This document shows, piece after piece, positions 40,790-55,552 of a DNA stretch of 64,000 bases. How positions within the stretch are numbered: position 1 is the stretch's first letter; the number at the start of each line of letters is the position of its first letter. Below the pieces are notes generated by a model. That model was not told where the DNA came from and did not search any database. It saw only the letters and a program-made list of their open reading frames with translations. Made by a program: the position numbers and the translations under genes. Source of the DNA: an uncultured Poribacteria bacterium (GTDB taxonomy: Bacteria; Poribacteria; WGA-4E; WGA-3G); NCBI GenBank assembly GCA_951812525.1, contig OX638316.1, forward strand, positions 3,466,506 to 3,530,505, in the 5' to 3' direction.

Positions 40790-42841
40790 ATGCAGCACAC
40801 ATCACAACAAAATGATTGGTTGGTTCAACCCTCTCGTCACCCTGCCTCAGTTGAGGAAACGGACAATCAACTTATTCTTGATAATGGACTCATTCGGCGA
40901 ACATTTGTCACCTCACCTAATTTCGCAACAGTCGATTATACCAATCTAATTACCGGTAACAGTCTTCTGCGTGGCATCAAACCAGAAGTAGTCCTTACAA
41001 TTAACGAGCACCAATTTGAGGTGGGTGGCTTGAAAGGGCAGCCCGACTACGCCTATCTTGATTTGGACTGGATACCCGACCTAACCAGTGCTCCAAGCGC
41101 ATTTCAATTTCGCGAATATCAGGTCGGTGAACCTGAAATCCGTTATCCGTGGGTACACGGGCGTTCTACCGCATCATCAGTATATCCACCAGAAGGTGTG
41201 AAATTGACGGTTGTCTTCTCACCGCCGCCGTCCCTTGACTCTATTGGGATTTGTGTGCATTATGAACTATATCACGGTATTCCTGTAATGGCCAAGTGGA
41301 TCTCTATTCGCAATGAGAGTCAAAAACCGATTCAACTTGATACCTTAAGCTGTGAGATCGTTGCCGTCAACGAGCAGGAAAAGCATCGGCTACATGTCGA
41401 AAGCGATTATGCCTTTAGTGGAGTCGAAACGACACAGTGGGGACCAGATGCGGACTACAAGACGCAAGTTGATTATCGCTATCAGATGCCGCTGTTGATG
41501 ACGAGTAGTTATCCACTCGGACCGGGGATACCTCTTAAACCGGGAGAGACGTTCAAGAGTTTTCGCACCTTCGAGATTCTGCATGATAGTGATGATCGTG
41601 AGCGAAAAGGACTCGCGCGCCGCAAAATGTATCGCACACTCGCCCCACAGGTCACAGAGAATCCAATTCTAATGCACGTTCGGAGTGCAGAGCCGGGTGC
41701 CGTACGTTTAGCGATTGATCAGTGCGCCGAAGTCGGATTTGAAATGGTGATTATGACCTTTGGGAGTGGATTTAATATTGAGAGCGAAGATCCGGAATAC
41801 ATCACCATAATGAAGGGATTGACCGATTATGCACATCGCAAGGGTATTCGACTCGGCGGTTATACACTGATGTGTGCTTCGCGGAATGTGGGTGAAGATT
41901 TCAACTGTATTGACCCAGACACCGAGCAACCTGGAAGTAGGTTTGGACAGAGTGCTTGTCTTGCGAGCAGATGGGCAGACGGCTATTCCCAGCGAGTGCT
42001 GAATTTCATGGATGCAACTGGAATGGATGTCATAGAGACGGATGGTCCTTATCATGGGGACGTATGCGCTGCAACGACGCACGACCATCATACCAGCTTG
42101 TCGGATTCGCAGTTGCGCCAGTGGCAAGCCTGCGTCCGTTTTTACCACGAATGCCGAAAACGCGATATCTATATCAATTCGCCAGATTGGTATTACCTCA
42201 ACGGTTCAAACAAATGTGGTATGGGCTATCGCGAAACGAATTTCAGCTTGCCCCGAGAGCGGCAAATTCTAATTGCTAGACAGAATATCTACGATGGCAC
42301 TTTTGAAAAAACACCGAGTATGGGCTGGATGTTTGTCCCGCTGGTGGAGTACCATGGCGGTGGAGCAGCTGCAACATTTGAGCCACTTTGCGACCACCTT
42401 GATGACTATGAATCACATCTTGCACAAAACTTCGGTAGTGGTGTGATGGCGTGCTATCGCGGTCCCCGGCTTTTTGATACTGAACAGACGAAATCTGTCG
42501 TCAAGAAATGGGTCGACTTCTACAAAAAGTATCGCCCAATATTGGATTCTGACCTGATTCACGTGCGCCGTCCAGATGGACGTTCCATTGATTGTGTGCT
42601 CCACGCTAACGCCCAAATCAATCCATGTGGACTCGCGATGCTCTATAATTCTACGCATGCAATGCAACGGATTACTTTGAAGCTACCCATCTATTATACT
42701 GGATTGTCTGAAATTGCCAAGATTCGTGAAAAAGAAGGAGAACTCAAGCAGTACAAGATTGACCGGAATTACAACGTCGAGATTCCAATTAAAATGGAAG
42801 CAAAGAGCGTTAGCTATCTCGTTATTGAATCTAGGATATGA
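40790..42841 (+). CDS. Alpha-galactosidase-like (clan GH-D type) protein
   Basis: This 683-residue protein has a large N-terminal beta-sandwich (about 1-285), then a TIM-barrel region (about 290-600) and a small C-terminal beta domain. This is the layout of GH36-type alpha-galactosidases. A candidate nucleophile is the Asp in DVIETDGPYHGD (about 415), at the end of a barrel strand where GH27/GH36 enzymes have YxKxD. No signal peptide is visible, so it is probably cytoplasmic. AAGGA precedes the ATG. Divergence from characterised enzymes is large, so activity is uncertain. Confidence 0.65.
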   Translation: MQHTSQQNDWLVQPSRHPASVEETDNQLILDNGLIRRTFVTSPNFATVDYTNLITGNSLLRGIKPEVVLTINEHQFEVGGLKGQPDYAYLDLDWIPDLTSAPSAFQFREYQVGEPEIRYPWVHGRSTASSVYPPEGVKLTVVFSPPPSLDSIGICVHYELYHGIPVMAKWISIRNESQKPIQLDTLSCEIVAVNEQEKHRLHVESDYAFSGVETTQWGPDADYKTQVDYRYQMPLLMTSSYPLGPGIPLKPGETFKSFRTFEILHDSDDRERKGLARRKMYRTLAPQVTENPILMHVRSAEPGAVRLAIDQCAEVGFEMVIMTFGSGFNIESEDPEYITIMKGLTDYAHRKGIRLGGYTLMCASRNVGEDFNCIDPDTEQPGSRFGQSACLASRWADGYSQRVLNFMDATGMDVIETDGPYHGDVCAATTHDHHTSLSDSQLRQWQACVRFYHECRKRDIYINSPDWYYLNGSNKCGMGYRETNFSLPRERQILIARQNIYDGTFEKTPSMGWMFVPLVEYHGGGAAATFEPLCDHLDDYESHLAQNFGSGVMACYRGPRLFDTEQTKSVVKKWVDFYKKYRPILDSDLIHVRRPDGRSIDCVLHANAQINPCGLAMLYNSTHAMQRITLKLPIYYTGLSEIAKIREKEGELKQYKIDRNYNVEIPIKMEAKSVSYLVIESRI

Positions 42842-52186: not shown

Positions 52187-52753
52187 TCAGCGACGATAGA
52201 TACTAACTTCCATGCCGTCACGCCTGCCGGGACGCCGTCGGCTCTCGAACCAGTGCGTTTCAGAGTCGTAGTGTGAGCGTACATGTTCCAGATAGTCCGC
52301 CATCTGTTCTGCCCTACCGACGTTGTCAGCGACAATCGTTGCTGGATTGGTTAACCGAGATTCGATCGCTTGGAAACAGGAAAAATAGCCGTCCTTGTTG
52401 TTATCAAGGAACAGAAAATCGACTGGCTCATCAATGGTTTTGAGGACTTCAGCAGCATCCCCAATGCGGGAATCCACGAGATCAGCCACCCCTGCCTTTT
52501 CAAAATTTGCCCGTGCCCTTTGTGCGTTGGCATCCTCTATTTCCACTGTTATTATACGTCCTGTGCCTAAAAATTTCAATACCCGTAACATCCACAGACC
52601 GGAATAGCCGATAGCGGTTCCACACTCTACAATCAAAGACGGTTTTGCCGTTTCAACACAACTCGCCAGCAATTTCGCTTTGTCAGGACCCAGCATCGGA
52701 ATGCGTTCCTCGCGACACTGTTCTTCAACTGCTTCTAAAACCTGTTCTAACAT
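52187..52753 (-). CDS. SAM-dependent O-methyltransferase (class I, family 3 type)
   Basis: The product has 188 residues from the ATG at 52753, which has GGAGGG seven bases upstream. A TTG at 52777 overlaps the previous stop but is weaker. The Rossmann methyltransferase fold is marked by VECGTAIGYSGLWML (motif I), ITVEIEDANAQRARANF (acidic SAM ribose ligand), and DFLFLDNNKDGY, which corresponds to the metal-binding DxDK region of catechol-O-methyltransferase-like enzymes. The substrate is unknown. It lies between DUF3500 and DUF5916 genes on the same strand, probably cotranscribed. Confidence 0.85.
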   Translation of the reverse strand: MLEQVLEAVEEQCREERIPMLGPDKAKLLASCVETAKPSLIVECGTAIGYSGLWMLRVLKFLGTGRIITVEIEDANAQRARANFEKAGVADLVDSRIGDAAEVLKTIDEPVDFLFLDNNKDGYFSCFQAIESRLTNPATIVADNVGRAEQMADYLEHVRSHYDSETHWFESRRRPGRRDGMEVSIYRR

Positions 52754-52773
52754 TAGTGTCCCTCCATATTTTT

Positions 52774-54000
52774 TCAATCTTGCAGACCGGCGATGTGATA
52801 ATCGAATAACTTGACACTCGTTTTGTGGTGATCTTCAAGAACGTAGTGTTCCAAGAGCGTTTTAGGACCGTGATTTAATGCAAAAATGCCGTAGTCTTTT
52901 CCATTAGGGGAGCGGGTAATGGTGTGGATATGCTCCAGATTACCACCGCCGGGTCCGCGATCACGTTCGCCTCTACCACCGCGTCCGCGTCTGCCACTAC
53001 CACCAGCTCCACCTTCGTTGTTAAATTCGATCCAAACGGCAGGATTGAAGACACGATAGTAGATTGGATCGTCCGTGGTCGTGCCACCAATCCAAACGAA
53101 ATAGGTGTCATCTATGCCAGCATCAATATCAGCCATCCATATATCCGCGAACTCGGTTTCAAGATTGTAGACATACGTCTTAATCAGGTTCCGAAGATTC
53201 TTTTTCTGAGCATCACTCATCTCTGATGCCTTCAAACCGATGCCGACAAAGTCTGAGTAATCGTGATTCAAGTACGGATCTGCTGATCTACCAGGACCTA
53301 CTTGGAGTCTACGCCGGTCTGTTTGAATTGCTTTCTCTTTTTGGCTCGTATCCAGATTGTTGAGTAAAGCAAAAGCGTTTCCCCTTTCGTCGTCCAGTAC
53401 GACAGTGCTGTTAATGGTCACCGGCTCAGATCCAATGAAGGCGGGAACAATAGATACCTCATCGCCATGCACAAGGAAATTCAGAGCTAAGTGATGTCCG
53501 TCCAGTTGAAAACCCCACGATCCATCTGTTTCAGGGTTGCCGAATAAAGCAATATGATAGGATTTCGGATCCCAAAGACTGGGTCTGATTGTGCTGAGAT
53601 GCGTTTCAACATCTTTCGTAATCAGAGAAACTTTGGTATAGCCATCATCACTCAAAAATGCGTTCAAAACATCATAGAAAAGTGCCAGCTGTTCAGTGGA
53701 CAATCTACCAAAACGGATACCGCCGCGATCACCACTCATACCTGGCGGAAAATTGCTCCAGCAATAAGATTCCTTATGTCCAAGTGGGAAAGAAGCCTTC
53801 TCAAGCAATTCGCTGCTCAGTGAGCTACGGAAGTTTTTCATAGGACTTGCCAAAGCGACAATTGACGGTTTTGTGGAGATTTCGGCGATGCCTTCTGTTT
53901 TTTCTGCTTGAACGGTTGTGCTATCGAAGATGGTGAGTGTGAGTATCACTATGCCTAGTGTAAACAGGACTGTAAATGTGAGTAGAATCTTGTGTGGCAT
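52774..54000 (-). CDS. Exported DUF3500 protein with Arg/Gly-rich insert
   Basis: This 408-residue protein has a signal peptide (about 1-32) and the DUF3500 core. Its recognisable centre is GSWGFQLDGHHLALNFLVHGDEVSIVPAFIGSEP (about 158-191), followed by LLNNLDTSQKEKA. Near the C-terminus a low-complexity Gly/Arg segment (GGAGGSGRRGRGGRGERDRG and on, about 333-356) interrupts what is normally a short loop before EHIHTITRSPNGKDYG. The function of DUF3500 is not known. An AAGGGA Shine-Dalgarno precedes the ATG. The methyltransferase gene follows 20 bases later. Confidence 0.85.
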   Translation of the reverse strand: MPHKILLTFTVLFTLGIVILTLTIFDSTTVQAEKTEGIAEISTKPSIVALASPMKNFRSSLSSELLEKASFPLGHKESYCWSNFPPGMSGDRGGIRFGRLSTEQLALFYDVLNAFLSDDGYTKVSLITKDVETHLSTIRPSLWDPKSYHIALFGNPETDGSWGFQLDGHHLALNFLVHGDEVSIVPAFIGSEPVTINSTVVLDDERGNAFALLNNLDTSQKEKAIQTDRRRLQVGPGRSADPYLNHDYSDFVGIGLKASEMSDAQKKNLRNLIKTYVYNLETEFADIWMADIDAGIDDTYFVWIGGTTTDDPIYYRVFNPAVWIEFNNEGGAGGSGRRGRGGRGERDRGPGGGNLEHIHTITRSPNGKDYGIFALNHGPKTLLEHYVLEDHHKTSVKLFDYHIAGLQD

Positions 54001-54183: not shown

Positions 54184-55515
54184 TTATTCGAGTGAAAGTT
54201 CAACCGTAATCTGCTCTCCATTTCGCAGAAGTTTTACGGGTAAAGTTTTCGCTTGAGGTGCTTCCTGTAGCACATAGGCGATGATACCACTTTCCGTGAG
54301 TCGATCAGTGCTGTTGCCATAACCAACAATAATATCGCCTCGACGGATCCCTGCCCTTTGCGCATTCGTTGTTGTAGATGAACGGCGTGATCGACGGCTA
54401 ACTTGCTCAACATTCAGTGCCATTTCGGTTTTACCTAAGCCGTTGCGTTGGCGTTCGGCATCAGATAGGTCTTCAAGCACCATCCCACCGAGTGCCACGA
54501 GTCGCAATTCGCCTGTCGTTGTACGCCAAGAAATGTCAGTGCCTTTCCGCCAACCCGGATTGAGAGTAAGCGTTAATTCAATTTCTTCTCCGTGCCGATC
54601 GACTCTAACTGGCAATGTTGTATTTTCCGGGGCGCGGTGTAGCACCCATTGCACATCGGCGATTGAGATAATCGGCTGCCCATCAAGCGTTAGAATCTCG
54701 TCTGCACGACGGAATCCGTCTTTCTCAGCGGGGGAGCCAGGCTCGACTTTACTAATCTTCGCTCGATGTTTCGGTGAAAAATGCAATCCCAAAACATCTG
54801 GCATCGGAAATGGGTACAGGATTTCATCAGGAATAGGCTTCCGGTTGTACCAATGGATCTCACGCTGTGCTTCACCAATCTGATGGCAGTGGATACATTG
54901 ACGGTCAATACTCCCTCCAAAATCCAAGGTTGCCGAGTACCGTAACAATGCCGGGAATGCCTCTGGTGTTTTCTTGAGTGGTTCAGGTCCGACCTTTGCC
55001 GCTAAAGATGACTTGTTTTCTGGGTATCCGGCGTGTAATGAGAGTGCAGCTTCAAGTGCCTGTTTGAAACTCTCAATTGAAATATCTTTCGCAGCATTTT
55101 CGTATTCAGCACGTGTGCCAAAACGTCCATAAATAGTCTTATCAGCATTCATGAAAAACGCGGCGAAGGTGAGGTCGTAATCAAATTGGAACAGCGATAA
55201 GTCCATACCGTTACCTTGCACCATACGGACGCGTACAAACTGCTCCATCAGTTCTTTAATCTGTTTGTCGTGACGAACAACCTGTTCATCGAAGCCTTGG
55301 CAGGACTCTCACGGCACTCACCGGAAAATGATAAGCAGCGGTTCTCCAGTCTTTTCTGCTTCGGCATACCCTTTATCGAGGTCGTTGTAGATCCAGTAGC
55401 CGGTTGACTTTACCGACTCTATGTCTTCTGAGACCTCTTCGTCACCGTGCCCAAAGCAGAATGATACAGCTAAGAGAAGAATGCCGAGCATTATACCCGA
55501 AACCCTGAATTTCAT
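54184..55515 (-). CDS. Exported thioredoxin-like / CxxCH / PDZ selenoprotein with two Sec codons
   Basis: This gene is read through two in-frame TGA codons (55320-55318 and 55311-55309) to give 443 residues. A signal peptide (about 1-22, AAGGAG nine bases upstream) is followed by a thioredoxin-like domain (TGEPLLIIFR-U66-V-P-U69-E-S-C72-QGFDEQVV). A single CxxCH haem-c-type motif follows (C207, C210, H211), then two PDZ domains (about 240-320 and 365-443). The downstream part is in the same frame, contains only its own TAA stop, and has no Shine-Dalgarno before the internal ATG at 55248. Cys homologues have Cys where U appears. A family called Trx7/PDZ (seleno)protein is known to me. Predicted role is periplasmic thiol/selenol redox chemistry. 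Confidence 0.85.
55272..55290 (-). promoter_or_regulatory. Candidate bacterial SECIS hairpin
   Basis: On the minus strand, arms GATGAAC (55290-55284) and GTTCGTC (55278-55272) pair over 7 bases with one G-U, around loop AGGTT. The stem starts 18 bases after the second TGA and 27 after the first. A G lies in the first two loop positions, as the bacterial SECIS model asks. Confidence 0.5.
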
Positions 55516-55552
55516 TAGTATATTCTCCTTTTCAGTTGTGTTTTTTGTATAT

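Follow-up and report, generated by a model that had tools for sequence, protein, structure and literature searches.

How one protein could be read from two frames parted by stop codons is the question raised by positions 54184-55515 of a 64,000-nucleotide (nt) stretch of DNA (here, the window) from an uncultured Poribacteria bacterium (GenBank assembly GCA_951812525.1, contig OX638316.1). Two open reading frames (ORFs) on its minus strand, 55515-55318 and 55248-54184, were proposed in an earlier note on this DNA to lie in the same register, and re-translation confirmed that they are interrupted only by two TGA codons (TGA1, 55318-55320, and TGA2, 55309-55311). Translation of TGA as selenocysteine (Sec or U) gives the active site R-U66-V-P-U69-E-S-C72, as the note had read it. 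Judging from sequence conservation and pairing, this stretch is almost certainly a functional double-Sec gene of the Trx7/PDZ (seleno)protein family. Moreover, an 18-nt spacer separates TGA2 from the Sec insertion sequence (SECIS), and in this family it folds into a further hairpin in 95% of two-TGA genes versus 28% of one-TGA genes. Taken as a whole, the explanation in which a double-Sec gene is aided by this spacer hairpin and encodes a presumed redox protein is considered very likely.

The genome was examined for the Sec machinery that such a gene would require. It consists of a single contig of 5.06 Mb, a Candidatus Poribacteria chromosome, and was found to contain selA (594 bits), selD (358 bits), and selB (336 bits), the last of which adjoins a tRNA-Sec gene (78 bits) whose anticodon is given by ARAGORN as tca (UCA). 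All the components named in the earlier note are therefore present. The selD gene holds an in-frame TGA of its own (G000:C1:3914052-3914975, L065), so SelD is likely a selenoprotein itself. Within the window, TGA ends 8 of the 39 long stop-to-stop frames, among them that of the downstream neighbour (52774) and one near 42841, which the note had cited as an ordinary stop; the genetic code has therefore not been reassigned. Both TGAs are kept in 16 nearly full-length relatives from separate assemblies of the same genus and family; the close relatives have 68-87% protein identity to the present gene product. Since the codons are conserved across separate assemblies, they are not sequencing errors, a possibility that the note had raised against its own reading.

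Homologues were collected from the same genus and family and by a scan of named genomes, which added members from Planctomycetota and Verrucomicrobiota. Candidatus Poribacteria assemblies are the nearest relatives with a name, and the titles of several point to sponge or marine samples. The 177 distinct members that could be classified comprise 93 UxxU, 50 CxxU, and 34 CxxC forms, and none of them has the UxxC form. Every one of these, as well as all 85 members of the alignment, has Cys or Sec at both active-site positions, which is what the note had expected of true homologues. Cys72, Arg65, Asp76, and the CxxCH motif at residues 207-211 are almost or fully invariant in the 85 aligned proteins. 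Two genomes (G078 and G079; L036, L037, L048-L050, L053-L055) contain four or more paralogues each in mixed forms, UxxU and CxxU in both and CxxC also in G079. Another member has three in-frame TGAs (G466:C148:7958-8860, site in L278), and one relative has both Sec TGAs together with an in-frame TAA (G030:C10:41933-43261, L023), the result of either gene decay or misassembly. Partial matches covering residues 1-92 or 1-54 in G016, G025, and G036 were considered as cases of gene decay; however, these matches run to contig ends and are therefore not evidence of decay.

The first hairpin after TGA2 follows the distribution of Sec. Out of seven possible pairs, a mean of 6.95 are formed in UxxU genes (n = 37) and 6.78 in CxxU genes (n = 18), versus 2.1 in CxxC genes (n = 34), which lack the hairpin. 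Covariation exceeded all 500 shuffles in both the UxxU and the CxxU group, and one pair of the stem takes all of A-U, G-C, C-G, and U-A. A covarying bacterial SECIS, an element that the earlier note had proposed to look for, thus lies downstream of the TGAs. In the present gene it has 7 bp and an AGGTT loop, and the 42 nt after TGA2, spacer hairpin included, fold at -13.2 kcal/mol. The loop starts at a distance of 25 nt from TGA2 and of 34 nt from TGA1; as both distances fall inside the published TGA-SECIS range of 16-37 nt (PMC13188914), a single SECIS could serve both codons. In some Planctomycetota the SECIS instead has an apical loop of 4 nt, AGTT (L239, L240, L256, L260, L261, L273, L274, L277). 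No Rfam family matched the window at gathering thresholds, a result with no bearing on a SECIS of this type.

Possession of a Sec form is also linked to the Sec elongation factor. In the sampled Planctomycetota, selB was found in 65 of 75 Sec-form genomes versus 13 of 45 genomes with Cys forms only (Fisher p 1.6e-10), and the remaining ten Sec-form genomes are all less than 90% complete. One genome has, about 2.5 kb from its full selB, a further SelB-like match that is partial (282 bits; G026:C50:157864-158679). It could still be argued that the TGAs are true stops, leaving either a pseudogene or two separate proteins, and the two-ORF appearance of the frames, the gene deletions in related genomes (described below), and the extra TAA in G030 would suit such a reading. 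Nevertheless, the protein is conserved across both TGAs over three phyla and each TGA is replaced by Cys in relatives, and both the covariation of the SECIS and the co-occurrence with selB contradict true stops, which makes this reading very improbable. Sequencing error, pseudogene formation, and code reassignment were rejected on the basis of the relatives' TGAs, the SECIS pairing, and the ordinary TGA stops in the window.

The spacer hairpin was assessed by comparing the folding energy of each spacer with that of synonymous recodings, with p-values combined over clusters by Fisher's method and a cut-off of -2.5 kcal/mol for presence of the hairpin. In the discovery set, UxxU spacers gave p 2.5e-6 (11 clusters) and CxxU spacers p 0.69. 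The prediction was then fixed before 99 further sites were fetched, 88 of which were new and distinct. In this held-out set the cut-off was reached by 51 of 56 UxxU spacers versus 11 of 32 CxxU spacers, with p 1.2e-14 (26 clusters) and 0.54, respectively. Control windows in the same UxxU genes reached the cut-off in 17-38% of cases versus 95% at the spacer, and those of CxxU genes in 22-54% versus 28% at the spacer. Where one genome holds both forms, the UxxU spacer folds better than the CxxU spacer in 10 of 12 cases (p 0.039). These comparisons suggest that the spacer hairpin is probably a selected feature of the two-TGA genes.

Several observations weigh against this interpretation. Control windows also descended to p about 1e-4 in GC-rich genomes, which shows the model of uniform recoding to be a little too lenient, although the value at the spacer lies far beyond this. 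When base pairs were counted in one fixed register, the spacer hairpin showed no covariation. The stem register does differ between clades (for example GCCT/AGGC, AAGGAC/GTCCTT, and GCTGG/CCAGC), and this shift accounts for the null result of a fixed-register count. Tree-based independent pairs offered too few supported transitions for significance (4 pairs); at the -2.5 cut-off, most pairings have all four pointing the expected way. As regards the gene as a whole, its neighbours are not conserved outside close Poribacteria relatives.

On this basis the hairpin could instead be a by-product of codon choice, with one SECIS decoding both TGAs within its range. The two spacings, both compatible with published SECIS elements, and the lack of fixed-register covariation are in keeping with this, as are a few two-TGA genes in which the spacer hairpin is weak or absent (L183, L188, L221). 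However, in both the discovery and the held-out set UxxU spacers are more stably folded than their synonymous recodings, CxxU genes of the same family and the same genomes have no such folding excess, and other windows of the genes fall short of the spacer signal. A by-product is therefore judged unlikely.

With selection on the hairpin as the preferred reading, a mechanism can be proposed. The two-TGA form would need extra help at TGA1, which the spacer hairpin would give, a step that is supported but not proven; the main hairpin alone serves the second position, as CxxU genes show. In the simplest account, which is a geometric one, when TGA1 occupies the ribosomal A site the spacer would lie downstream and be free to fold, bringing the SECIS loop nearer. 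When TGA2 is being read, the spacer would be inside the ribosome and melted, so that TGA2 would see the same geometry as in CxxU genes. Whether the hairpin acts by shortening the distance between TGA1 and the SECIS is put at even chances. The fuller proposal, that a local second hairpin is an adaptation which lets one SECIS serve two close UGAs by folding only at the first and resetting the UGA-SECIS distance, is plausible but falls slightly short of that.

The main rival to this mechanism holds that the spacer hairpin is a second, small SECIS for TGA1 alone and that the main hairpin serves TGA2. Its loop, however, has no common G[G/U] pattern, and many of the accessory stems taken alone are weaker than the model cut-off of -7.5 kcal/mol. 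Furthermore, the hairpin persists in genes with another codon in place of Cys72, a change that also alters the loop (L222, L226, L235), which suggests that its shape rather than its loop sequence is kept. A separate SECIS for TGA1 thus appears improbable.

The forms of the active site were also placed on a tree of 85 proteins from which the active-site letters had been masked. Fifteen changes among the three states are needed, and well-supported branches force several of them; Sec and Cys have therefore replaced each other repeatedly, in a direction that this tree does not show. A possible order is from CxxC to CxxU to UxxU, in which each step would be a change of TGC or TGT to TGA and the last would be made cheap by the SECIS already in place. 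Such an order fits the absence of UxxC.

The earlier note had described the combination of a UxxU pair, a CxxCH haem motif, and two PDZ domains in one exported chain as an unusual architecture. Its components were found: Pfam matches comprise Thioredoxin_7 followed by two PDZ stretches, with no match to a trypsin-like protease domain, and the CxxCH motif is present. The architecture itself is not new, since the family is already catalogued as NF041199, a whole-protein equivalog model which the present protein matches at 401.1 bits (curated cut-off 300). AlphaFold models had a mean predicted local distance difference test score (pLDDT) of 82 and 83, and their structure matches were the DegQ/DegP PDZ tandem and thioredoxin-like proteins (DsbH-like, AGR2/3, and ERp18). 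The signal peptide that the note had placed on the upstream part is probably formed by residues 1-22. In two same-genus relatives a deletion has left residues 1-34 as an in-frame fusion with the mature part of the DUF3500 neighbour, and this reuse of the N-terminus argues for an export signal. The coordinates of all features are collected in Table 1.

Table 1. Features assigned to the predicted double-Sec gene (window positions).
Feature	Position	Strand	Remarks
Trx7/PDZ double-selenocysteine protein gene	54184..55515	(-)	443 codons, TGA=Sec at 66 and 69, TAA stop
TGA 1 = Sec66	55318..55320	(-)	
TGA 2 = Sec69	55309..55311	(-)	
Shine-Dalgarno AAGGAG	55525..55530	(-)	nine bases 5' of ATG at 55515
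Probable export signal, residues 1-22	55450..55515	(-)	sequence; N-terminus fusion in G031 and G037
Thioredoxin_7 domain, residues 41-124	55144..55395	(-)	Pfam; fold search
Cys72, third active-site thiol	55300..55302	(-)	present in 81/85 members
His161, candidate second haem ligand	55033..55035	(-)	present in 84/85 members
CxxCH motif, residues 207-211	54883..54897	(-)	all three ligands invariant, 85 members
PDZ domain 1, residues 242-318	54562..54792	(-)	Pfam
PDZ domain 2, about residues 345-441	54193..54483	(-)	bounds from structure model
18-nt spacer, folds into accessory hairpin of two-TGA genes	55291..55308	(-)	
SECIS hairpin GATGAAC-AGGTT-GTTCGTC, 7 bp	55272..55290	(-)	loop 25 nt after TGA2, 34 nt after TGA1

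From these features a function can be suggested. Sec66 and Sec69 would form a low-potential selenol/diselenide pair in the thioredoxin fold, with support from Cys72. At CxxCH a c-type haem is predicted, and it may exchange electrons with the Sec pair, while the PDZ tandem may bind exposed peptide tails. The protein would then be an envelope reductase or a repair oxidoreductase. A haem-coupled reductase is proposed tentatively, at somewhat less than an even chance. Instead, CxxCH may bind another metal or be a thiol pair, and the enzyme may be peroxidase-like or metal-handling. The motif occurs in one copy only, and the fold matches are to general thioredoxin-like proteins, which do not fix the function. 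Against this, C207, C210, and H211 are all invariant, His161 outside the motif is almost so, the protein carries an export signal, and the genome encodes cytochrome c assembly proteins. A role other than haem-linked reduction is possible, though somewhat less likely than not.

Downstream of the gene and on the same strand lie genes for a DUF3500 protein (52774-54000) and an O-methyltransferase-like protein (52187-52777). Both are kept beside it in related Poribacteria. Conservation of this neighbourhood was considered as a clue to function and set aside, as it is confined to close Poribacteria. The gene has been deleted in some genomes of the same genus (G031:C49 and G037:C244, L057 and L056; G010:C1:5582239, L058). 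In the G031 and G037 fusions the DUF3500 protein takes over the start and signal peptide, and selB is retained.

The family was reported earlier as a 'MucD'-like CxxC/U protein fused with PDZ (PMC9402790), and NF041199, the Trx7/PDZ (seleno)protein, is listed with a single Sec, as CxxU (Zhang et al., 2026, PMC13188914). The present gene agrees with NF041199 in family model, domain order, and Sec at the second position but differs from the catalogued form in having Sec at both positions and an extra spacer hairpin; the catalogued single-Sec motif is one member of the series CxxC/CxxU/UxxU. Other bacterial UxxU proteins, namely a peroxiredoxin (Prx)-like oxidoreductase, the NF041115 metal-binding protein, and FmdB (PMC13188914), likewise have two Sec but belong to separate families. 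The PDZ part has fold and sequence relatives in the DegP/DegQ tandem, whose protease domain is absent here. SelL, an aquatic Prx-like selenoprotein (Shchedrina et al., 2007), is described as having a diselenide bond in papers that cite its report (PMC2397514 and PMC2398784). On that literature description, it resembles the present protein in the UxxU motif, a Sec pair with the potential to form a diselenide, in a thioredoxin-like redox centre, and two close recoded UGAs; it differs in being Prx-like without PDZ and CxxCH, and its eukaryotic members use another SECIS type. The Sec pair of the present protein may form a diselenide, as shown for SelL. In the literature on Poribacteria selenoproteins nothing was found on the present protein, and the literature searched, mostly without subscription papers, held no description of a UxxU form of the NF041199 family or of the spacer hairpin.

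To our knowledge, there is no explanation for how bacteria read two UGAs three codons apart. This family offers a natural experiment, since its 177 versions of one gene differ in having no UGA, one, or two, with different forms sometimes present together in a genome, and it ties a specific, testable RNA feature to the second UGA. It also represents a widespread, probably exported UxxU redox protein of sponge and aquatic bacteria that ordinary gene callers split in error. The ordered pattern of CxxC, CxxU, and UxxU, but never UxxC, bears on the evolution of multi-Sec redox centres. If the proposed mechanism is true, the absence of UxxC would mean that Sec at the first position arises only atop an existing Sec at the second.
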